Origin: Janthinobacterium sp. PAMC25594
GTDB lineage: Bacteria > Pseudomonadota > Gammaproteobacteria > Burkholderiales > Burkholderiaceae_D
Assembly: GCF_019443505.1 (NCBI RefSeq)
Contig: NZ_CP080377.1
Coordinates: forward strand, 310,001-374,000
Length of the DNA stretch: 64,000 nt
Direction: 5' to 3'
Below the pieces are notes generated by a model. It ran no database searches and had not been told where the DNA came from. It saw nothing but the letters and a program-made list of their open reading frames with translations. Shown here piece by piece: positions 3,304 to 15,300 of this stretch. The stretch's first letter is position 1. Each line of letters starts with the position of its first letter. The translations under genes were made by a program, and so were the position numbers.

Positions 3304-3708
3304 TTACTGCGTGCGCAGATAAGCCAGCAAATCGGCCACTTGCTGGGCATTGCCGATGCCCCAAAAGCGCATGTTATTGCCGGGAATGAAATCGCTGGGC
3401 GCCTTGAGGAAACCGGCCAGGTTTTGCTCGGTCCAGACGATGTTCGCGTTTTTCATGGCCGCCGAATACTTGTAATCGGTGGTGGCAGCGGCTTTGCGGC
3501 CAATCACGCCCGTCAGCTTGGGGCCGAAGCCGCCGCGCGCCGATGGCCCTACCTGATGGCAAGAGGCGCACTTGCGAAACGCGGCCTTGCCCGCTTCGGC
3601 ATTGCCCATGAGGGGGGCGGGAACGGCGGCTGCGTGCGTGATGGCAGCGTGCGTCAGCAGCAAACCCGCGGAGGCAAGAGAGAAGAGCGAGCGAAAGGTG
3701 GATGTCAT
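3304..3708 (-). CDS. Class I cytochrome c, periplasmic
   Basis: A 134-residue secreted cytochrome. A signal peptide (STFRSLFSLASAGLLLTHA, cleavage near THAAA) is followed by the haem-binding CxxCH motif in RKCASCHQVG. A downstream methionine in PGNNMRFWGI fits the distal haem ligand. Length and motif spacing match the small soluble c550/c2 type that carries electrons between periplasmic redox enzymes. The start at MTSTF gives a clean signal peptide; other in-frame ATGs lie 15 and 69 bp upstream and cannot be excluded. The electron donor and acceptor are not evident from the neighbours. Confidence 0.88.
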   Translation of the reverse strand: MTSTFRSLFSLASAGLLLTHAAITHAAAVPAPLMGNAEAGKAAFRKCASCHQVGPSARGGFGPKLTGVIGRKAAATTDYKYSAAMKNANIVWTEQNLAGFLKAPSDFIPGNNMRFWGIGNAQQVADLLAYLRTQ

Positions 3709-3855
3709 TGGTGAGGCGGGCATGCGATGTGTGGCAATGGGTGGCAAGCGATGACGCATTTTACAGGCGCACATCAAAACCTGCCCGCCAGCACGGACAT
3801 GGATGCGAGGAAGCGGCGCAGGCAGCGATGCAGGATGGACGCAGTACCGCTACCG

Positions 3856-4734
3856 CTAGCGCTTGCCGCCCTGTGCGCCCAGCGCCGCCATGGCCGACGC
3901 AAACACGATGCAGGCGATGGCCAGCCACTGGGTCAGGCTCAGCAGTTCTCCCAGCACCGCCATGGCGGCCAGCGCGCTGACGGCGGGCGCCGCGCTGCTG
4001 AACATGCCGAACACCCCTTGCGGCAAACGGCGCAAGGCAAAGATTTCCAGCGAGTACGGCAGAGCGCTGGACAGCATGGCGATTGCCAGGCCCATCAGCG
4101 CAATCGATGGCGCCAGCAGGGCGGTGCCCGAATACGCGACGCCGATGGGCACCGTCACCATGGCCGCCACCGTCATGCCCCAGGCCACGGCTTGCCCGCC
4201 CTGCAAGGTCGAGGCGCGCTTGCCGAAGATGATATACAGCGCCCAGCACAGTGCCGCCCCCAGCGCATACGCCACGCCGATCGGGTCCAGGCTGCCCGGG
4301 CTACCCTGCAGCGGCAGCAATAAATACAAGCCGAACACGGCGCAGGCGACGGCGAATAAATCGCGGGGCCGGCGCGACGACAGCATGGCCACGGCCAGCG
4401 GCCCCGTCACCTCGATGGCCACGGCAATACCGATCGGTATCAGCGCAAACGCCCGGTAAATCAGCAAGTTCATCAATCCCAGCACGGAACCGTAGACCAG
4501 CAAGTTCAGCACATCCTTGCGCGTCAGCCGGAAACGCCAGGGCCGGAAGATGGCCAGCAGGATCAGCGCCGAAAAACCCACCCGGTACGCCGTAATCCCC
4601 TCGACGCCGATGACAGGAAACAGATTCTTCGCAATCGCCGCCCCCAGATTGACGGAAATCTGCCCTCCCAGGACCGCCAGGGACGGGAGCAAAATGCTGT
4701 CGGGGAGGGGGGAAGTCGAGGCGGGGGAGGTCAT
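3856..4734 (-). CDS. rhtA: EamA/DMT-family exporter, RhtA-like
   Basis: A 292-residue inner-membrane drug/metabolite transporter with about ten hydrophobic helices in two EamA repeats. The first half contains GAAIAKNLFPVIGVEGITAY, then LLAIFRPWRFRLTR and GIAVAIEVTGPLAVAMLSSR. The second contains AIAMLSSALPYSLEIFALRR. These segments follow E. coli RhtA, the threonine/homoserine exporter, closely. An amino-acid efflux role is inferred from that similarity; the substrate is not proven. The start was set at the MTSPAS methionine, preceded by a GGGGGAGG-rich stretch on the reverse complement. The gene is the last ordinary core gene before the accessory island. Confidence 0.85.
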   Translation of the reverse strand: MTSPASTSPLPDSILLPSLAVLGGQISVNLGAAIAKNLFPVIGVEGITAYRVGFSALILLAIFRPWRFRLTRKDVLNLLVYGSVLGLMNLLIYRAFALIPIGIAVAIEVTGPLAVAMLSSRRPRDLFAVACAVFGLYLLLPLQGSPGSLDPIGVAYALGAALCWALYIIFGKRASTLQGGQAVAWGMTVAAMVTVPIGVAYSGTALLAPSIALMGLAIAMLSSALPYSLEIFALRRLPQGVFGMFSSAAPAVSALAAMAVLGELLSLTQWLAIACIVFASAMAALGAQGGKR

Positions 4735-5091
4735 GGGGCGCCATTTTAATACGCAACAGGCCGCCAGTCGCTGGCAGATCTGCAATTAAAAGCAATTTAA
4801 CGGTCAGATCGGGTAAATGAAAACGTGGCTATCTCTGCTGAACTTAAATTCTGGCCCACCTTAAGAGCTCAAAGACTTCAGAACTAATGCGACCCCTCCG
4901 TTCTAATGCGACCCTCCGTTAATTTTATTGACGTGCAGACAACTGGTTACATAGGTGTTTAGTTTCGTGCGATTATATTCCTCGTCGCAGCATGCCCCTG
5001 TTCCGGGCCAGAGCTGCGCTTGACGAGTTGATCGGCGGTTTGCCACCGAGATCGGCCCACCGGTTGCAGCACATCGCATAAACTTCAGCCC
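4735..5091. other. Left edge of the accessory island, no gene seen
   Basis: This 357-bp gap lies between the RhtA-like gene and the IS481-type transposase remnant. The only clear element is a short tandem repeat at 4884-4920. The left boundary of the island must lie here. I could not define terminal inverted repeats or a target-site duplication. Confidence 0.4.
4884..4920. repeat. Two tandem copies of an 18-19 bp unit
   Basis: The unit CTAATGCGACCCCTCCGTT (4884-4902) is followed immediately by CTAATGCGACCCTCCGTT (4903-4920), identical except for one C in a run of C's. It lies about 170 bp before the broken transposase. It could be a duplicated IS end or a replication-slippage product; its function is unknown. 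Confidence 0.7.
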
Positions 5092-6066
5092 ATGAGCACA
5101 AGCATTCACCCCCAAGTCCGCACCACTCCGAAAATCCGGCAGGAAATCAAGGACTCCGGCCTGTCCGACCGCGAGGCCGCCAAGGTTTTCAATATCACCG
5201 TGCCACGGCCGCCAAGTGGCTCAAGCGGGACGAAGTACAAGACCGTTCGCACCGGGCCCATACGCTGCATACCACGCTGAGCGCGACGCAAGAGGCCATC
5301 GTGCTGTCACTGCGCCAGTCGCTCTATCTGCCGATTGATGACCTGCTGTACATTACCCGGCAATACAACAATCCCGACGTCTCCACCCGGGCATTGCCGG
5401 TTTGCTCAAACGCGAAGGCATGGCCCGGCTGGAAGATGTCATTCCCAAGGCTGAGGGAGAAACGATCTTGGCCAAGCAGACCTTCAAGGACTACGAACCC
5501 GGCTTTGTTCACGTCGACATCAAATACTTGCCGCAGATGCCAGACGAAACCTCGCGCCGCTATCTGTTCGTGGCAATTGACCGCGCCACGCGCTGGTTGT
5601 TCCTGCACATCTACGGTGATATGAGCGATAAAAGCAGTGTCGACTTTTTGAGCTGGCTCAAGCTGGCCTCGCCAATCAGGATCATTAAACTGCTGACCGA
5701 CAACGGCTCGCAATTCACCGACGGCTTCACAACAAAAGACAGGAAGCCCAGTGGCCAGCACCCCTTCAATAAAGTCTGCGCCGCAATGAGTATTGAACAC
5801 CGCCTGGCACCGCCCCGGCATCCGCAAACGAATGGCATGGTGAACGATTCAACGGCCGTATCAGCGAACTATTGCAGCAGACCCGATTCGATAGTCGGGC
5901 CGATCTGGAGATGACCTTGCTCAACTATTTAAAGCTTTACAACCACCACATTCCACAACGGGTCATCGGTGCTAAAACATCCATCCAGGCGCTAAAAGAA
6001 TGGCAGCAAAAGAAGCCGGAACTATTCGTTAAGTGCGTTTATGATCAAACGGGACTGGACATATAG
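5092..6066 (+). pseudogene. IS481-type transposase, inactivated by three frameshifts
   Basis: A DDE (rve) transposase that is intact only when read across three frames. The N-terminal helix-turn-helix begins MSTSIHPQVRTTPKIRQE. Reading shifts near 5202, near 5391 and near 5842. The catalytic core shows the first Asp in FVHVDIKYLP and the second in LLTDNGSQFTD. The third acidic residue (Glu in GMVERFNG) is restored only if a base is added at the third break. Each break can be repaired by one extra G next to existing G's. The C-terminus (LLNYLKLYNHHIPQR, then KKPELFVK) is complete. No functional transposase can be made as read. Either the gene has decayed or the assembly dropped bases in G runs. 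Confidence 0.9.
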
Positions 6067-6170
6067 GTAGTCCGCAATATCGTATTCTTGTATTATAGTA
6101 GCACCTGACGCCTCTCCTATCCAAACTGAAATACATGCGGTATTTATAATGCCCGATCTAGTAAGAAATA

Positions 6171-7061
6171 CTAAATATTAAATCCATAAATCTTAAAGGC
6201 AACTGTGGCGTTGGAAGCTAATGTCGCTGCTAAACGTCGTTTTACCACGTAATCAAGTAAATCGGGGCAATTCGCCAACGCATTATATAACATTCCCGCA
6301 GCTGAATGAGTTCCGTTGTTGTTAAATTCAAAAACTGATTTTTCTTTCAGTTGCTGCATCAAATTTTCTATTGTCATGACTAGGTTGAAATTGCCAGGCG
6401 ATTGAAATATGATACCGGTCGTTAATTCTTTCTCTGTGTATTCATACCAGAACTTTTCGCAAAATCTTAGAATTTTTCTGCGGATTTCTGCCACAGTAGC
6501 AAATTGGCCAAACCGTTTTCTTGATGGAAAGTCTAATCTTTTATTGGCACGGAGTGTGAATGTAGGCTTTCCGTCAAAAAAATTGACTATCTCTAACTGC
6601 AGGAAATTAGTTTTCATCCATTTGCTAAACACTGGGTGTAGGTGTCCTTCAATGTTACCTTTTGATGAATTGCATTCACCGCATACTGGGACTAAATTAT
6701 GGAGGAAAACTGCGAACTGAGGGAAATTACTAGTTGGCAAGAAATGATCAAGTTGACCATTTCTCGGAATGCCGCAAATTAAGCATGCTAGAGTTATTGA
6801 ATATCTCAAATCGTCGAACTTGACTTGAAAAACCGTACCAGACCTATATGCATTTTCAAAAGTTTTTTTGTTGCGTAAAAGATGTCTTGATGGTCGTAAT
6901 TCTTTGTGATTTCTATTGATAAATTTATGATAGTTGTAATAGTGCCGTCTTACCTCGAGAAAACGGCTGAGAATTTCCTTGCGTTCATCGGTCTTATACG
7001 CACGAAAAAAATCTCGCAACATGATCAGTTCTCGCTCAACCTCTTGTTTAATATTATTCAT
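6171..7061 (-). CDS. HNH endonuclease, PtuB-like (Septu-type partner)
   Basis: A 296-residue nuclease. It has a Cys4 zinc knuckle (C93, C96 in LACLICG; C127, C130 in VPVCGECN) bracketing an HNH core: D105-H106 in LDHFLP, N122 in HNLVPVC, and N131 with K134 in CNSSKGN. This LDHFLP...NLVPVCxxCN pattern is typical of nucleases paired with AAA/ABC-type ATPases, such as PtuB of Septu. The start codon begins one base after the ATPase stop (TAA-T-ATG), so translation is coupled and the pair forms one operon. Another ATG lies 45 bp upstream. Base composition is strongly AT-rich compared with the surrounding chromosome, indicating horizontal transfer. The expected role is cleavage of invader DNA or another nucleic acid under ATPase control; this is inference. 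Confidence 0.85.
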   Translation of the reverse strand: MNNIKQEVERELIMLRDFFRAYKTDERKEILSRFLEVRRHYYNYHKFINRNHKELRPSRHLLRNKKTFENAYRSGTVFQVKFDDLRYSITLACLICGIPRNGQLDHFLPTSNFPQFAVFLHNLVPVCGECNSSKGNIEGHLHPVFSKWMKTNFLQLEIVNFFDGKPTFTLRANKRLDFPSRKRFGQFATVAEIRRKILRFCEKFWYEYTEKELTTGIIFQSPGNFNLVMTIENLMQQLKEKSVFEFNNNGTHSAAGMLYNALANCPDLLDYVVKRRLAATLASNATVAFKIYGFNI

Positions 7062-7062
7062 A

Positions 7063-8637
7063 TTATTTGCTTGCTTCTTTGATTTTTCGGTAATAACTAA
7101 GTCCATCTACTCCAAGCAAGTTTCTCACTTCCCGATCAAATTTTTCAACATCACTTGAGTTGTCCACTGCGTCGCTAATTACCGTTTCAAACGATTTTTT
7201 TACTGTATGGTCATCGAATATTATGTCATTTATTAAGCCAACGCTTTCACCAAATGTTTGAAGCATTGGTCTCAGTATTTTCGTATCTTCATTTTGTCTT
7301 TGGAATATATGAACAGAAATAGCCTCAACTTCTCGAACAACCAATGCTGAATGTGACGCCATAATGCAAAAGGAATTTTGTGATATTAATATCGCTCGCA
7401 AAATAGATATTCCAGTCGATATAAATTTTGGATGCATACTATTTTCAAGTTCATCCAATAATAGTAAAGTATTTGGCATCACCTGTGCTGATACATTTAA
7501 GGCAATATCTATTAGGCATTCTTCTCCAGAGCTAAGGCCGCGCTCAACGCCATTCGAATCTACAAAGCGTAGGCCTCTGGCAGTGTCCACGTTTGCGCAA
7601 AAATCTAGTCGATCTCGTTCTCCTCCAAAAGTTCTTAAAAGAGTATATCCACCATGTTTAACGGGTACTTCTATATCAAAATTCTCGATTGCCTCTATAA
7701 GAATTTTGCGCAAGAACGCTAATGATAATCCATCTGAATTTCTTCCAATTTTCGCTACCGCCTCTGTTCGGGATAATCGATGATTGCCTCCCGCTCCAAT
7801 CTTAATACACTTTACGCCTTGAGGTAGGTTTGACGGCGGAGTTGTTGAGGTGGCAAATACGACAAGTTCAAATCCAACATCTTGCAGGTTGCAAACGCCT
7901 TCTGTAATTTTATTTAGTGATATATGGTCTTGTGTATTCGTAACTATTTTTGCCGACTCCACTAGTACGCTGGTCTTTCCAATGCCATTTATTCCGATTA
8001 AAACGGCAATCCTGTTTTTTCCAAGCGCACTTTCAGAGCAATCGAAAATTAATGTTGGATTTTCTACAAATCTCAAACTTTCATAACTTGACCAGAACGC
8101 TCGAACCTCTCTTAAAACATCATCTTCTCTAGCTCCAATTAAAAGACGATTCGAATTACTTTCTGAAATAAGATAGGCATCACGTTTTCTAACGAAACCC
8201 ATAAAATATTCTTTGGTCGACGTTAAGCTAAGGTCTGGTAAATCTTTAGCCTGTGTTCGCAGAGTCGGCAAATCATGTAATGAGCGAAGAATTTCAGTCG
8301 CCGCATCTATTCCGAAAACTTTCCCTAAAGAAAAGTAATTATCTTTGGATAGCTGTGCAGTTATAAAGAGAAATCCAATATCATCTAACGATAAGTAACT
8401 ATTGGAGTGATTCGACAATTTCTTCTTAAACCAGTCTTCAGTACGCGGTTCCATCTCAACAAGCATTCGCAGAGGTTTTGACCAAACCTTTATTCCAGAC
8501 TGAAATATTGTGAGTTTTGCATATAGCTTCAAATCAAAATCATTCCACTTATCGCTGTCGGGATGCAATAGTGCAATGATGCCGCTTTTATCGGAAGAAA
8601 TATTTAAGTTATCGTTTAATGATAGGAATATTTTCAT
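7063..8637 (-). CDS. ABC/AAA-type ATPase, PtuA-like (Septu-type partner)
   Basis: A 524-residue soluble ATPase of the SMC/Rad50-like ABC class. Walker A is GINGIGKTS (about 215-222), a signature-like LSSGEE is near 368, Walker B LLLLDELEN is near 391, and a switch histidine lies in IMASHSAL. The roughly 200-residue N-terminal region has no family I can name. It is followed directly by the HNH nuclease. An ATPase then an HNH gene in that order matches Septu (ptuA-ptuB), though OLD-like or other ATPase-nuclease pairs remain possible. The start was set at MKIFLSLNDN. The frame is open 270 bp further upstream, but that part runs into transposase sequence. No strong ribosome site is visible, so the start is uncertain. 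AT-rich, clearly foreign. Confidence 0.82.
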   Translation of the reverse strand: MKIFLSLNDNLNISSDKSGIIALLHPDSDKWNDFDLKLYAKLTIFQSGIKVWSKPLRMLVEMEPRTEDWFKKKLSNHSNSYLSLDDIGFLFITAQLSKDNYFSLGKVFGIDAATEILRSLHDLPTLRTQAKDLPDLSLTSTKEYFMGFVRKRDAYLISESNSNRLLIGAREDDVLREVRAFWSSYESLRFVENPTLIFDCSESALGKNRIAVLIGINGIGKTSVLVESAKIVTNTQDHISLNKITEGVCNLQDVGFELVVFATSTTPPSNLPQGVKCIKIGAGGNHRLSRTEAVAKIGRNSDGLSLAFLRKILIEAIENFDIEVPVKHGGYTLLRTFGGERDRLDFCANVDTARGLRFVDSNGVERGLSSGEECLIDIALNVSAQVMPNTLLLLDELENSMHPKFISTGISILRAILISQNSFCIMASHSALVVREVEAISVHIFQRQNEDTKILRPMLQTFGESVGLINDIIFDDHTVKKSFETVISDAVDNSSDVEKFDREVRNLLGVDGLSYYRKIKEASK

Positions 8638-8921
8638 ATGTCGGCAATGACTTATTGAGTTGATTTCAGAAATTAATAAATGCTTATTTATTAATTTTAA
8701 CATTATATAGTGGTGAATTTTATTATTTATTATCAATTCAAGGAATTTATTTCTCTGAGTTGATACTATGGGTTCTATTCCTTTAGCGCCGAAAGTTCCT
8801 TTGCCTATAGCATCGATAGTCCACCGCATGAGCCTTCCTGTCAAGTAACGAAGCAATATTAAATGGGTGCGATGTTCATCAGTTGTAGTGCCAGACGCTT
8901 TCGGCAATTTTTGCCTCTAAG
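8638..8921. other. Junction between defence module and truncated transposase
   Basis: This AT-rich stretch lies upstream of the ATPase and must hold its promoter. Near 8921 the sequence switches abruptly from transposase coding sequence (GC-rich) to unrelated AT-rich DNA. The ATPase frame stays open through the region but encodes nothing recognisable. No reverse transcriptase or retron RNA is apparent. Confidence 0.5.
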
Positions 8922-9470
8922 CATTTGTTCGAATACACCTGCGCCAACCCAGCGCGAAAACGCCTTGTAGACCGCCTGCCAGGGTGGGAACGTCTCCGGT
9001 AGCAGCCGCCATGCGCAGCCGGTGCGCAGCACGTAAGAACATGCATTGACGAGATCGCGGCGACTGTAGCGCACGGGTGTGCCTCGCTGTCCCAGCATAC
9101 GCTTGAACAAATCAGCAACCAGCTGCCATTCAACATCTGTCAGGTTCGTGCTATACGGCGAGATGGCCTCGCGCCTGTGGGCTGCCGTGTAGCCATACCG
9201 CTTGGCTCCCTCGGCTCGCACTGCGCACGTCCGGCGTACCGGCTTGAGCCGTACGAAGCCTAGCGTGCGTAGCGCGCGACGAATGGTTGCTGTGCACACG
9301 CGTAGACCACAGCGGTGATGCAGTTCATCGGCGATTTCCTGCAAGCTGGCCTGGGCGCGTTCCATCACGATATCGTGCAAAATGGCGATATGCTCAGGCT
9401 TCAGCGCTGGCGGTCTGCCACCAACGCTGCTTGACGGTTCAGTGCCGTCGAGTGGATGTGTCGTTGCCAT
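8859..9470 (-). pseudogene. IS5-group transposase, truncated after its N-terminal half
   Basis: The ATG at 9470 follows a good ribosome site (GGAGG, 8 bp upstream on this strand). Residues about 18-75 form a winged HTH of the kind seen in IS630-like proteins (ASLQEIADELHHRCGL, then TIRRALRTLGFVRLKPVRR). The next part is the IS5-group N-terminal domain (YSTNLTDVEWQLVADLF, then YVLRTGCAWRLLPETFPPWQ). Similarity ends after FEQM, at about position 8922. About 20 unrelated residues then lead to a stop, and the whole DDE catalytic half is missing. It is therefore a remnant whose 3' part was replaced by the AT-rich ATPase/HNH module. Confidence 0.85.
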
Positions 9471-9634
9471 TGCATGCTCCTCCCACATCGAGATAGCATG
9501 CCACAACTTCGTTGTTGATTTTGTCTACACCCTCTAAGATGGATATCTTTTGAAATAGCTGGTCGAGCGGTCGAGTAACTCACGTATAAATAAGAATTTG
9601 ATTTAGCAGATTTAAATATAGGAATAGTGAAAAC

Positions 9635-10603
9635 ATGGAATTTGAACGGCTCACAACAGCAGCAACAGCAGGCGACCCATATGCCCAAAACGAGCTTGGC
9701 CTGCGGTATCACTTAGGTAAGGGAGTGCCTGTAGACCTCGCTTTGGCGGCAGCGTGGTATAGAAAATCAGCTGAACAAGAGTTGGCAATCCCACAGTACA
9801 ACTTAGGGTTAATGTACCGCGAAGGCTACGGTGTTGAGAAAAATTACAAGAGTGCCTTTGGCTGGATATCCAAAGCTGCGTATCAAGGGCTTGCAAATGC
9901 ACAGTATGACGTTGGATTAATGCACGAGTTCGGGAATGGAACGCCAAAAGATGATGCGCAAGCAGTTCAATGGCTGACACGAGCGGCAGAGCAAGACATG
10001 CCGGAAGCTCAAAGTCATCTTGGGATGAGATATTTCGAAGGTCGGGGTGTTCCTCAAGATGATGCAAAAGCATTACTATGGACGAAGAAGTCAGCAGAAC
10101 TAGGTCTGGCGGAAGCCCAGCACCATCTTGCCTTAATGTATCTTGACGGAATTGGTGAGGAACTATACGACGGGGAAGCCGCGTTTTGGGCAAACAAAGC
10201 CGCTCAACAAGGGCATGAAGTTGCAATCTATAATGTTGGGCAGATGTACTTGAAAGGTCAGGGTGTGCTGCAAGACCCTTCGAGGGCTATGGCTTCGTTT
10301 CTGATACTGGCACAGAAGGGGAACGTGCTATGCCAATACAACCTTGGAGTTTTATATGGACAGCTAGGCACATCAAAAGACGACGCGCAGGCTCTATTCT
10401 GGTATGAGAAGGCAGCAGCGCAAGGATATGCTGATGCTCAAGCTAATCTTGCTTTGATGTACATACAAGGAAATGGCGTGCCAAAAGACTACAGCATTGC
10501 TGCTGAATACCTATCAAAGGCAGCAGAGCAAGGGCACGCTGGTGCGCAACACAACCTTAAAATGATTGTGAAAAAAATTCAGGGGCAAGGCAAGTTACAT
10601 TAA
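9635..10603 (+). CDS. Sel1-repeat (SLR/TPR-like) protein
   Basis: A 322-residue protein made almost wholly of about eight Sel1-like repeats of 36 residues. Examples are YNLGLMYREGYGVEKNYKSA, YDVGLMHEFGNGTPKDDAQA and ANLALMYIQGNGVPKDYSIA. These form an alpha-solenoid scaffold for protein-protein contacts. No signal peptide or membrane segment is present, so it is probably cytoplasmic. Base composition is lower in GC than the flanking chromosome, and it sits between a transposase remnant and the phytase genes, so it probably belongs to the acquired island. Function is unknown. A regulatory or defence-related scaffold role is possible but unsupported. Confidence 0.85.
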   Translation: MEFERLTTAATAGDPYAQNELGLRYHLGKGVPVDLALAAAWYRKSAEQELAIPQYNLGLMYREGYGVEKNYKSAFGWISKAAYQGLANAQYDVGLMHEFGNGTPKDDAQAVQWLTRAAEQDMPEAQSHLGMRYFEGRGVPQDDAKALLWTKKSAELGLAEAQHHLALMYLDGIGEELYDGEAAFWANKAAQQGHEVAIYNVGQMYLKGQGVLQDPSRAMASFLILAQKGNVLCQYNLGVLYGQLGTSKDDAQALFWYEKAAAQGYADAQANLALMYIQGNGVPKDYSIAAEYLSKAAEQGHAGAQHNLKMIVKKIQGQGKLH

Positions 10604-10894
10604 AAAATCGCAGATAAGATTTACGAATAAGTTCCTTGATGATTAGGAAGTCCGTTCATTAAACTCATTGATATGAAAAGGAGCCGCGTTTGCATAAGCT
10701 TAACTTGCTCATGGCTGTGATGAGGATTTTCGAATCAATAGGAATGGCGGCGGAAGGGCAAGAGTTGTTGCCACAGTTTAGACCTGCGCCTTGGAGCAAA
10801 CAGTTTTTGGTTTTTTGTTGATACCAATGCGTGCAAACCGCTGAAGCCAGTCATTTCGGTCGCAGCTATTTCGCACGCACTGGATTTGTGATCG
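10604..10894. other. Right edge of the accessory island, no gene seen
   Basis: A 291-bp gap between the Sel1-repeat gene and the convergent phytase gene. Composition changes from AT-rich to GC-rich across it, so the right boundary of the island probably lies here. A T-rich stretch follows CAAACAG near 10800. I see no convincing gene, att site or inverted repeat. Confidence 0.4.
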
Positions 10895-12748
10895 CTAATT
10901 CAATCCCAACGCCTTCGCCACATCCCCCCACGCCACATACTTGAAGTTCTGCGGCCCATCGGGCAGGCGCTTGTAGCCGTCCTGGATCACCAGCATGCCT
11001 TGCGCATACGCGCCGCCCAGGTTGGAGGAGGTGACGTCGAGGCCATCCGTTTCCGAGGTGCCGTCTATGCCGGCGGGCAAGTTGAATCCCACCTTGAAGC
11101 GGCCGCGTACTTTATATGGCGCTTGCGCGTCGAGCACCACGTAGCTGCTGTCACCCTGGCTGGAGACGATCAGGTAGCCTGTGTTGGGCGCGCTGCCGGC
11201 CTTGCGGTAGATGGCCATGCCTTCCACGTCGGCTGTCAGGTGCTGGCCGACGGGCAAGACCATGGTGAGGGCATCGGGCTTGGCGGCGTCGGCCGAGGTG
11301 GTCCAGATGCCGCGCGTTTCCTCGCCCAGGAACAGGCGGGCGTTGGCGTCATCGGCCACGCAGCCTTCCGGTTGCGTGGCGACTTTGAAGCTGCGCAACA
11401 GAGTCGCGCTGAACTTGTTGCCGCTCATTTCTATCTTGTACTGCTGGAAGGTGCCGTCCTTGTCGTTGATGAATGCTTGCACGCCGCCGCTGGCCGGCTG
11501 GTACAGACACATGCCGTAGATGCTTTTCAGTCCGGTCGGAAAACGGCCCGCTTCCGCCACCTCGCCGCTGGCATTGATGGTAAATAGCATCATGCTGTTG
11601 TCGTCGCGCTGGGTGGCCACGGCCAGGTCGACCTTGCTGCCGCCCAACTGGATGTTCTGCCGCACGTCGACGTTGTTCAGGCGGCCCACTTCCAGCAGCT
11701 GCGTCTGCTTGCCTTGCAGGTCGTAGACCAATAGCCCCTGTTTCTTGTTGGTGCCCAGGATGCGCGCATTGGCAGGATCGCTGGCCAGCCAGATGGCCGG
11801 GTCGTCAGCCGCGTCGCCCTGGCGCGCCATCGGTTCCGTTTGCGCTTGCGGGGCGATGATGGCCAACGCTGGCTGGGTTTCCGCCTTGCCCGCCCATTTC
11901 AAGGGCCGCGCCTGCCAACCGTTCTTGCCGCGCAGCAGTAGCGACTCCTTGTCCAGCGCCAGCTGGCTGTCGCCCTTGCGCACGTTCAAGGCGATGGCCT
12001 GGGCCGGCTGCGCCGTCCACTGTCCGCCTTGATGGGTGACCAGGTGCAGCTTGTCCGCCTTGCCGTTGAGCACGGCCACGCCGCCGGGCAGCACGGCCAA
12101 GGCGCCGGCGCCGCCGTCCAGCTGGCCGTACGGCTTGCGCAGGGCCACCACTTCGCGCTTGCCCATGCCTTCCGAATCGGCGTCATACGCCCACACGCCC
12201 ATGTTGGACTCGCTCACCAGCAGGCGCCGGGCGCCATCGTCGACACGGCAATGTTTCGCATGGGGCGGCAAAGCGAGTTTGCGCACCAGGCTGCGCTGTT
12301 CGCCCTGCATGACCCACTGTTCCGCCTGGCCATCCTTGCCGATCAAGAACAGATGAGCTAGCTGCTGGGCGTCGCGGTACAAACACGATGCTTCCACGGA
12401 AAACGTCGGCACGGGAAACGGCGCCAGTTTCACCAGCTTGCCGGCTTGCACGTCGACGGTGACGGGCAGCGGGCGCTGCGTGTCCGCTTCCAGGAACACG
12501 GCCAGCACCTTGCCGCCATCGATGCGCGTGTCGAGCTGCTTGGCGCGCATGGCGATGCGGTCCTGTTCCTGGCCGGCCGCATTGAACAAACGCAAGCCGT
12601 GTTTATCCAAAGTCAACCAGCCGCCGCCGGGCAGGCGGGCCAGTTCTTCCGCCTCCTGCGTAAAGGAGGGTAAAGCGTTGGCGGGCGCGGCTTGTGCGAT
12701 GCCGCCGAGGCAAGCCAGCAAAGCGCTACAGAGTACGGTTTTTTTCAT
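10895..12748 (-). CDS. Beta-propeller phytase, two-domain, secreted
   Basis: A 617-residue exported protein beginning with a signal peptide (MKKTVLCSALLACLGGIAQA). The C-terminal half, from about residue 300, is a beta-propeller phytase domain: DAADDPAIWLASDPANARIL, GTNKKQGLLVYDLQGK, EGCVADDANARLFLGEE and ETDGLDVTSSNLGG. These are the acidic calcium- and phytate-binding stretches of the family. The N-terminal half is propeller-like but lacks these motifs, matching the incomplete domain of dual-domain phytases. The expected activity is stepwise phosphate release from phytate in the periplasm or outside the cell. The start lies 14 bp after the stop of an upstream TonB-dependent receptor, so the two form a phytate-use operon. 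Confidence 0.88.
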   Translation of the reverse strand: MKKTVLCSALLACLGGIAQAAPANALPSFTQEAEELARLPGGGWLTLDKHGLRLFNAAGQEQDRIAMRAKQLDTRIDGGKVLAVFLEADTQRPLPVTVDVQAGKLVKLAPFPVPTFSVEASCLYRDAQQLAHLFLIGKDGQAEQWVMQGEQRSLVRKLALPPHAKHCRVDDGARRLLVSESNMGVWAYDADSEGMGKREVVALRKPYGQLDGGAGALAVLPGGVAVLNGKADKLHLVTHQGGQWTAQPAQAIALNVRKGDSQLALDKESLLLRGKNGWQARPLKWAGKAETQPALAIIAPQAQTEPMARQGDAADDPAIWLASDPANARILGTNKKQGLLVYDLQGKQTQLLEVGRLNNVDVRQNIQLGGSKVDLAVATQRDDNSMMLFTINASGEVAEAGRFPTGLKSIYGMCLYQPASGGVQAFINDKDGTFQQYKIEMSGNKFSATLLRSFKVATQPEGCVADDANARLFLGEETRGIWTTSADAAKPDALTMVLPVGQHLTADVEGMAIYRKAGSAPNTGYLIVSSQGDSSYVVLDAQAPYKVRGRFKVGFNLPAGIDGTSETDGLDVTSSNLGGAYAQGMLVIQDGYKRLPDGPQNFKYVAWGDVAKALGLN

Positions 12749-12762
12749 GTTATTGATAATCA

Positions 12763-15300
12763 TCAGAAGGCGCTGGCTTTCAGGCTCACTTTGAAAGTGC
12801 GGCCGTATTGTTCGTTTTGCACGTTGTATTGCTTCGTGCCTTGGTAGACATAGTATTTCTCGTTGTTCAGGTTCGCCGCTTCAAAGACCACCTGGAATTG
12901 CTTGTTGATCTGGTAGGACAGCGAGAAATCGAGCTGTTTCTGGCTGGCGACGATATGGTCCTGGCTTGGATCGAGGATGTCGTTGCCCATTTCCAGCAGA
13001 TAAGGCGACTTGTAGTTGAGGGCCAGGCGGGCGCTCACAGGCCCTGTTTCATAACCGAGCATCAAGTTCATCACCTGGTTCGACTGACCCGGCAGGCGGA
13101 TATCGCGGGTGAGCTGCTGCTTGCTCGCCTTGTCGTAGCGGCCGATTTGCGCGCTCGAGGTGCTCAGGGTGCCGTTGACGCCCACGAGGAACTTATTGAA
13201 TGGCGCCGGCAGCATGCGCAGCGGCTGCATGTAGGCCAGTTCGATGCCTTTCACCTTGGCCGCGTCGCCATTCGCATACGAGGCGGCCGTCGTGTAGCCC
13301 GTCCATTGTCCCGTGCCGGCCAGGTTCGTCGTGTAGGTAAAATTCTTGATGTCCTTGTAGAAGCCGTAAGCGGACATCACACCGTCGTTGCCCAGCACTC
13401 TTTCGATGCCGAGGTCCAGGTTGTTTGCTTTCAAGGGCTTCAAGTCCGGATTGCCGATCACGGCTTCCGTGTTGCTGGCCAGGCTGATGCCCGGCGCCAG
13501 CTGGCTGAAGTTGGCGCGCACCACGGCTTGCGTCCAGGCGGCCCGCACGCTGGTCTTTTGATCCAGGTCATAACGGGTTTGCAGGTTCGGCAGCCAGTTG
13601 GTGTACGAGCGTTCGCGCGTCAATGCCTTGGCAACCCCGGTGCTGTCCACCTGCGAGCCGTCCGCCTCAAAGCTGGTGCGTTCGGCGCGCACGCCGCCGA
13701 GGATGTGCCAGGCGTCGAAGTCGTAGCTGTTTTGCACATACATGGCGTTGATGTCTTCATGCATGCGGTAATCGTTGATGATGGACTCGGTGGCCAGGCG
13801 CGCCTTGGCGCGGTCCAGGCCCGCGACCCTGGCGCGTATCAGGGCCGGGTCCAGCGCCACGCCGATGTTGCCCAGGTCGTAGTCGAGATTGTGGCCTTGC
13901 ACGAAGGCGCTCATCGAGGTCGAGCCGGCGCCCCAGTAATTGCCGCTGGTGGCCTTGCTGCTGTTATACGCCCATTGATCCGTGTCATTGGTCTTTTCGC
14001 GGCGGCTGATCTTCGCGCCGAATTTCAGGGTGGCGATGTCGAACTTGCGCGCCAGGTCGATGCGCGCGTGGTGTTCATTGTCCTTCGAATAGCGCTTTTG
14101 CAGGGTGATGGCGTTGAGCGCATAGCTGGCCGGATCGTACAGCGAGGCGGGGCCGCTCAAGACAGGTTCTTGAGTGTCATTGAAACTGATGCCGTTAAAG
14201 TTGCTGACGCCGCGGAAACGGCCGTCGTTCAAGGACTCGGGCTTGTCTTCCGTGGCGCGGCTCATGCCGCCTTTCACGTCCAAGGTCCAGTCGCCCGATT
14301 TTTGCTGCGTGCCCAGCACGAGCGAGCGCACTTGCTGCGTGTACTTGCGCTGGCGGATGCGGCGCTCGGCGCGCGCGCCGGCCGTCTGGCCTTCGGCCAG
14401 GCTGCCGCCCGTGATATTGCTGATGGTCAGGCGGTCGCGCACTTCATCGTCGGAAAATTCGCTGACGAACGAGCGCAGGAACCAGCTGTTGCCCGCTTCC
14501 GGGCGGTAATCGAGGTTGACGGCCAGGGCGCCGCGCTTGCGCACGGGCAGGTAGTCGCGCAATTCCAGGCTGGACAGGCGGCCCTTGCTCCATGAACCGC
14601 CCGTTTCCACGTCATCGGAGCCGAACGAACGTTTTTCCGCGCTCAGGCCGGCGGCCACGCCCAGCTTGCCGTCGAGGAAGCGCTGGGCCCACAGGGCGCC
14701 GCCGCTGGGGCTGGTCCTGCCCGTCTTTTCATCATGGCTGGCACCCACGTTGGCCGACAGCAGCTTGCCCGGCAAGTCGAAGGCGGACAGCGATTTGACT
14801 TCGATGGTGGCGCCCAGCGAATTGGCGTCCATTTCAGGGAGTAAGGTTTTCGAGACTTCCAGAGTGCGGATCAGGCCGGCAGGCAGGATATCGAGCGCCA
14901 CGGCGCGGCGGCCCGCTTCCGGCGACGGCACCAGCGCGCCGTTGATGGTCACCGCATTCAAGTCCGGCCCCAGGCCGCGCACCGTGATGTAGCGGCCTTC
15001 GCCCTGGTCGCGCTGCACGGACACGCCCGGCAAGCGGGCCAGCGCCTCGGCCGCGTTTTTGTCCGGCAAGCCGCCGATATCGTCGCTGCTGATGACGCTG
15101 ATGATGTTGTCGGCTTTCTCCTGTGCGGCGATGGCGTTGCGCAGGCTGGCGCGCTGGCCGCTGACGACGACGGTGGCGGCCGGCAAGCCATCCGCATCTT
15201 GCGCTTGCGCATGGCTTGGACCGCTGAAGACGGCCATGATGCCGAGGGCCAGGGCCGTCAGGCGCAGCGGAGAGGGGGGCGAAGTGTGCATGGTTTTCAT
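12763..15300 (-). CDS. TonB-dependent outer-membrane receptor paired with phytase
   Basis: An 845-residue outer-membrane receptor. It has a signal peptide (LRLTALALGIMAVFSGPSHA), then a plug domain (NIISVISSDDIGGLPDKNAA, ALARLPGVSVQRDQGEGRYI, TVRGLGPDLNAVTING) and a 22-strand barrel ending in aromatic-rich RTFKVSLKASAF. The plug sequence resembles the large Caulobacter/Xanthomonas-type TonB receptor group that takes up plant-derived compounds. The start was set at MKTMHT, which gives the signal peptide; an in-frame ATG lies 171 bp further up. Its place immediately before the phytase suggests uptake of phytate, inositol phosphates or a metal complex. The ligand is inferred from context only. 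Confidence 0.9.
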   Translation of the reverse strand: MKTMHTSPPSPLRLTALALGIMAVFSGPSHAQAQDADGLPAATVVVSGQRASLRNAIAAQEKADNIISVISSDDIGGLPDKNAAEALARLPGVSVQRDQGEGRYITVRGLGPDLNAVTINGALVPSPEAGRRAVALDILPAGLIRTLEVSKTLLPEMDANSLGATIEVKSLSAFDLPGKLLSANVGASHDEKTGRTSPSGGALWAQRFLDGKLGVAAGLSAEKRSFGSDDVETGGSWSKGRLSSLELRDYLPVRKRGALAVNLDYRPEAGNSWFLRSFVSEFSDDEVRDRLTISNITGGSLAEGQTAGARAERRIRQRKYTQQVRSLVLGTQQKSGDWTLDVKGGMSRATEDKPESLNDGRFRGVSNFNGISFNDTQEPVLSGPASLYDPASYALNAITLQKRYSKDNEHHARIDLARKFDIATLKFGAKISRREKTNDTDQWAYNSSKATSGNYWGAGSTSMSAFVQGHNLDYDLGNIGVALDPALIRARVAGLDRAKARLATESIINDYRMHEDINAMYVQNSYDFDAWHILGGVRAERTSFEADGSQVDSTGVAKALTRERSYTNWLPNLQTRYDLDQKTSVRAAWTQAVVRANFSQLAPGISLASNTEAVIGNPDLKPLKANNLDLGIERVLGNDGVMSAYGFYKDIKNFTYTTNLAGTGQWTGYTTAASYANGDAAKVKGIELAYMQPLRMLPAPFNKFLVGVNGTLSTSSAQIGRYDKASKQQLTRDIRLPGQSNQVMNLMLGYETGPVSARLALNYKSPYLLEMGNDILDPSQDHIVASQKQLDFSLSYQINKQFQVVFEAANLNNEKYYVYQGTKQYNVQNEQYGRTFKVSLKASAF

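Follow-up and report, generated by a model that had tools for sequence, protein, structure and literature searches.

The window analysed here, the full 64,000-nt stretch at positions 310,001–374,000 of NZ_CP080377.1 (forward strand) from Janthinobacterium sp. PAMC25594, carries an intact pair of genes encoding an ABC-type ATPase and an HNH nuclease. We put at about 0.7 the probability that this pair is a divergent PDC-M01 (Ea59–Ea31-type) anti-phage module working like Septu, the PtuA–PtuB system. Both proteins belong to the PDC-M01 family, their catalytic residues are conserved, the two genes are strictly coupled among relatives, and the predicted folds resemble PtuA and PtuB; judged from sequence comparison, a role in defence is likely. 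The PDC-M01 kind is already catalogued as a candidate system, and the noteworthy part is the distance of this member from its family together with the link to phage lambda.

An ATPase–HNH gene pair of the PDC-M01 family

Profile searches in PADLOC placed both proteins in PDC-M01. The top match of the ATPase was the PDC-M01A model PDLC04242 (5.9e-55), with all of the first seven rows being PDC-M01A, and the top match of the nuclease was the PDC-M01B model PDLC04266 (1.2e-23), with all of the first 19 rows being PDC-M01B. The best PtuA model for the ATPase, PDLC00282, ranked eighth at 9.9e-27, and no PtuB model appeared among the best 25 of 48 PADLOC rows. In Pfam, AAA_21 was the only family above its cut-off for the ATPase, ABC_tran falling below, and the nuclease matched HNH below the cut-off.

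Comparison of predicted structures disclosed that, among the PDB matches listed, a solved PtuA lies closest to the ATPase model, over residues 169–524 only, and a solved PtuB lies closest to the nuclease model; the matches listed for the ATPase all begin at residue 169 or later. The solved entries include PtuA–PtuB complexes, according to their titles. The best 50 rows of a viral fold library for the ATPase model were all either generic ATPases or entries with unrelated names. The reading as an ABC transporter ATPase unconnected with defence was rejected on two grounds, the ABC_tran match below the Pfam cut-off and the top PDB matches to PtuA. The profile search proposed in an initial annotation of this DNA gave its best matches, for both proteins, to a defence-candidate family and not to a non-defence one. 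That annotation had called the pair Septu-type or closely related; profiles, gene order, folds and tree together uphold the close relationship and not the identification as Septu itself.

The 524-residue ATPase was found with the GINGIGKTS, LSSGEE and Walker B motifs originally described for it (Table 1). In an alignment of 56 family ATPases, R150, G215, N217, G220, K221, S369, G371, D395, E396, E398, H402, P403, H429, S430 and F474 are invariant, and the window protein has all of them. Pro397, found in 55 of the 56, is replaced by Leu in the window alone, giving DELE rather than DEPE. In the N-terminal part, the near-invariant W31, D33, Y101 and D122 are kept. The Cys4 knuckle and conserved core reported for the nuclease (C93xxC96, D105-H106, N122, C127xxC130-N131) also held up, each of these residues being invariant in 53 of 53 nucleases except N131 (51 of 53). 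The window nuclease departs from its family at Tyr144, replaced by Val, and at Trp254, replaced by Ala, each conserved in 49 of the 53. Across the aligned proteins, identity of the window pair to its relatives is at most 25%.

Table 1. Positions within the window of the gene pair, its motifs and the flanking transposase remnants.
Feature	Position	Strand	Basis
ABC-type (AAA_21) ATPase, PDC-M01A / Ea59-like, 524 residues	7063..8637	-	PADLOC, Pfam, predicted fold
HNH nuclease, PDC-M01B / Ea31-like, 296 residues	6171..7061	-	PADLOC, predicted fold
Family-specific ATPase N-terminal region, residues 1-185, before Walker A	8083..8637	-	PADLOC PDC-M01A only
Walker A GINGIGKTS, residues 215-223	7969..7995	-	Sequence; G215, N217, G220, K221 in 56/56 rows
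ABC signature LSSGEE, residues 368-373	7519..7536	-	Sequence; S369, G371 in 56/56 rows
Walker B LLLLDELE, residues 391-398	7444..7467	-	D395, E396, E398 in 56/56 rows
Zinc knuckle and HNH core (C93, C96, D105-H106, N122, C127, C130-N131)	6669..6785	-	Alignment of 53 nucleases
Left transposase remnant, rve integrase core	5402..5911	+	Pfam rve 2.3e-10
Right transposase remnant, helix-turn-helix (HTH) part and DUF4096 (IS4/5)	8862..9506	-	Pfam DUF4096 2.2e-23

The region before Walker A, which had not been recognised earlier and had suggested a divergent subtype, turned out to mark the PDC-M01A family. Searched alone, residues 1–185 matched PDLC04242 at 4.3e-16, and only PDC-M01A models in PADLOC reached E ≤ 1e-4; no Pfam family was found above its cut-off. 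The predicted model shows strands followed by helices in this region. Separately, residues 1–175 of phage lambda Ea59 (L030, 2479–3003) also match another PADLOC candidate, PDC-S34 (E 4.1e-9), with residues 17–85 aligned against 311–374 of 416. Going by this match, the Ea59 N-terminal domain may be a mobile module that defence candidates have in common.

According to the open reading frame (ORF) list and translations, the ATPase stop, whose last base is 7063, is followed after 1 base by the ATG of the HNH gene at 7061, exactly as first annotated, coordinates included. An alternative in-frame ATG at 7106 would give an HNH ORF of 311 residues overlapping the ATPase gene. We prefer the 7061 start because the alignment of the top PDC-M01B profile begins at residue 16 of the longer form, which is the 7061 start. 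A chance pair of ORFs was rejected, since the longest stop-free run in 6067–8858 spans 597 codons against at most 174 in 1000 single-base shuffles. The high AT content noted before was confirmed, with GC contents of 37.7% and 37.3% for the two genes versus 63.1% for the 11–64 kb part of the window. Promoter-like sites were not in excess (9, shuffle mean 9.4) and terminator-like sites were absent (shuffle mean 2.0).

Gene coupling, phylogeny and the phage lambda relatives

The relatives, collected with ATPase similarity as the sole criterion, come from records of plasmids and phages, from genome and viral contigs and from whole genomes; 182 loci were scored with the profile of an alignment (A1) whose 25 members are among them. 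The high-scoring group reached at least 200 bits and the low-scoring group at most 120 bits (n = 50, PtuA-type and other ABC ATPases among them), with two truncated loci between. After the repeats L009 and L029 were dropped, the high group held 128 loci, or 114 at 90% identity, 5 of which were excluded for having fewer than 900 bases downstream. An HNH ORF lies directly downstream of the ATPase in 109 of the 109 usable loci, the window included (53 from viral contigs, 31 from genome contigs, 12 from plasmids, 10 from whole genomes and 3 from phage records). The HNH motif was loosened before this final count; the strict form had missed L107, L116 and L136, which do carry an HNH ORF, with different Cys spacing. 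Homologues standing apart from each other, named at the outset as evidence that would speak against a paired system, are therefore not what the relatives show.

Matches to the window ATPase at E ≤ 1e-5 came from 83 plasmid records. Single-protein scans found no relative in viral contigs, so the alignment was used for that search; 149 candidate relatives were then confirmed and 80 kept, 71 of them in the high-scoring group. Matches to the window ATPase at E ≤ 0.001 were sparse, in 20 of 399 genomes for the order and 11 of 369 for the class; its own genome is counted in both, and several of the matches are weak. Within the genus, the nuclease alignment matched 15 of 40 genomes at E ≤ 0.001, four of them near full length (at least 165 bits), the window's included. 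Among genomes of the genus, G001 and G019 carry other PDC-M01-type pairs, G436 has a full-length HNH member, and G004 has a canonical PtuA–PtuB pair (L002, L003, L004, L279).

Whether the pair is Septu proper, merely diverged, can be judged from these relatives. PtuA models do match the window ATPase, PtuA and PtuB are the nearest solved folds, and naming practice overlaps: in PMC11811056, 41 loci of the Bacillus cereus group called both Septu and PDC-M01 by PADLOC were retained by the authors as Septu, PDC-M01 is among the candidates given another name by DefenseFinder, and the PDC systems of PADLOC are described as unpublished candidates. Against this, PDLC00282, the PtuA model with the best match, amounts to an Ea59 profile, since it matches lambda Ea59 at 5.4e-184, and some of the double calls may stem from it for that reason. 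The median position of Walker A is residue 203 in the high group (range 51–362; 107 of 110 located, ORF starts not curated), compared with residues 17–68 in those 23 of 47 low-group members for which it was located. In a tree of 121 ATPases, 14 PtuA-type rows make up one side of a branch with an SH-aLRT (Shimodaira–Hasegawa-like approximate likelihood ratio test) support of 99 and the window lies outside, though the tree was a quick search in which the placing of the window's long branch is unsure. The PtuA-type label here denotes a low score with an HNH neighbour; L004 alone was verified in PADLOC (PtuA 2.6e-155 with PtuB 2e-25). Canonical Septu was rejected on best profile and tree position, neither of which places the window pair with Septu, and a merely diverged Septu is an unlikely account.

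The tree puts the window ATPase, away from lambda, in a 15-member group (support 95) that also includes plasmid members from Rhizobiales, Novosphingobium and Tritonibacter, viral members and a Paraburkholderia. Apart from the PtuA-type rows, no end branch is longer than that of the window, at 1.91.

Phage records searched by tblastn yielded 19 matching records: 17, judged by name or position, are from lambda or lambda-like phages, matched through Ea59, and 2 are phage clones. In PADLOC, lambda Ea59 is PDC-M01A (3.9e-201) and Ea31 is PDC-M01B (5.8e-113). BLASTP aligned the window ATPase with Ea59 over window residues 195–512 (E 3e-18, 23% identity) and the nuclease with Ea31 over window residues 17–154 (E 1e-13, 30% identity). 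Both lambda genes are scored non-essential in PMC10695390. We found no paper tying Ea59 or Ea31 to defence in a search that covered few subscription journals and no bioRxiv preprints, and such a link may exist in print elsewhere. The accessible literature on the candidate system yielded no anti-phage assay of PDC-M01.

The genomic site and the remaining alternatives

The placement of the pair between two transposase remnants was corroborated by Pfam, with rve on the left and DUF4096 on the right. The right-hand ORF has no catalytic domain by Pfam; its HTH_32 and HTH_Tnp_Tc3_2 matches are both slightly below the cut-offs. The HTH part is joined to the IS4/5-type DUF4096 in one ORF, an arrangement that would fit one insertion sequence having landed within another. 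No target-site duplication was recognised among the repeats listed for the interval.

To compare the site, we took 39 other genomes of the genus and fetched the interval from the 24 in which both flanks (3856–4785 and 10895–12763) lie on one contig. The interval at 4786–10906, between a transporter-like gene and the gene at 10895–12763, varies within the genus, being about 1.1 to 16 kb long in the 24 sister genomes. At the DNA level the pair is present in 0 of the 24, and the only DNA match of the window interval was 324 bases (4971–5293) in one genome. From a search of 61 of the 95 ORFs, with the best 25 of 29 PADLOC families listed, the same site was found to hold AbiU in G025 (1.9e-202) and the Wadjet protein JetA in G011 (2.3e-100); the JetB and JetC models each matched one scanned ORF, presumably at the G011 JetA locus. 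Just outside the island lies the gene of a 322-residue Sel1-repeat protein (9635–10603; Pfam 2.3e-71; GC 48.3%), which has no DNA match in the 24 syntenic intervals.

These surroundings bear on a second alternative, that the pair is an ATPase–nuclease encoded by a phage or other element for some purpose outside defence of the cell, for example inter-element competition or element maintenance. The abundance of relatives in viral contigs and plasmids and the non-essential scoring of lambda ea59 and ea31 are what this would predict. The site itself, on the other hand, also takes AbiU and Wadjet, and of the ORFs examined in the window interval none was recognised as a phage gene. In addition, for 4 of the 10 plasmid relatives with annotation PADLOC identified a defence gene no more than 4 kb away, namely Gabija (L034), a GajB-type helicase (L040), AbiEii (L036) and Shedu (L043), the neighbours tested being six ORFs, all in those four records and picked by annotation. 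We consider such a role improbable. That the pair is a non-functional relic, decaying where insertion sequences enclose it, is a reading to which the long branch, the loss of some near-invariant residues and the incomplete transposase ORFs on both sides could point; it is quite doubtful given two fully open frames, a stop-free run far beyond the shuffles and retained catalytic residues.

Proposed mechanism and comparison with known systems

For a divergent PDC-M01 anti-phage module, the behaviour of PtuA–PtuB offers a model. According to PMC13096335, one Escherichia coli Septu needs its Walker and HNH residues and tRNA-Tyr is cut in the variable loop upon infection; PMC11555353 reports another Septu acting on nicked phage DNA, as well as one retron PtuAB that depletes tRNA-Tyr and a second that does not. 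Judged by its predicted folds and its active site, the pair in the window is expected to act in the same way, as an HNH nuclease gated by ATP. We infer that the ABC ATPase would oligomerise and bind the HNH protein, holding it off while ATP is bound. The ATPase, with its family-specific N-terminal domain, would detect a phage-induced change and in response free or activate the HNH enzyme, which could then cut nucleic acid, either phage DNA or host tRNA, and halt phage production.

More tentatively, PDC-M01 could be a second, independent Septu-like lineage in which the family-specific N-terminal domain takes the place of a retron or another trigger, with lambda ea59–ea31 a working member shielding lysogens from other phages and the window pair an early-branching bacterial form. 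If so, two genes scored non-essential in the best-studied temperate phage would gain a function, and a widespread candidate system would be joined to the Septu mechanism, raising the question of which signal the N-terminal domain perceives. The copy in the window shows how great the divergence within the family can be with catalytic residues retained.

Among known systems, type I-A retrons (Ec78/Eco7/Ec83) have a PtuAB effector with the same ATPase and HNH folds. A retron was rejected, as no reverse transcriptase was recognised among the ORFs of 3500–12000 (by eye, partly with Pfam) and no Rfam RNA family matched up to E 1 in 4700–11000. Septu is alike in the order of an ABC ATPase gene followed by an HNH nuclease gene and in the nearest solved folds. 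It differs in having Walker A near the start of PtuA, compared with about 190 residues before it in the window family, in its PtuA-type ATPases grouping apart in the tree, and in its HNH ORFs, which in the low-scoring set are shorter (20 of the 24 have 187–236 residues, while the median is 286 in the PDC-M01-type family). Lambda Ea59–Ea31 is a tandem ATPase–HNH pair of nearly the same size (525 and 296 residues, compared with 524 and 296); its genes overlap by 4 bases, whereas those of the window have a 1-base gap, it adjoins int rather than lying between transposase remnants, and the two ATPases sit in different parts of the tree. PDC-M01 itself shares with the window pair the best profile for both proteins, the gene order and the N-terminal region, although the window ATPase scores 184.5 bits on PDLC04242 and the plasmid relatives of Novosphingobium and Sinorhizobium score 867.3 and 858.7.
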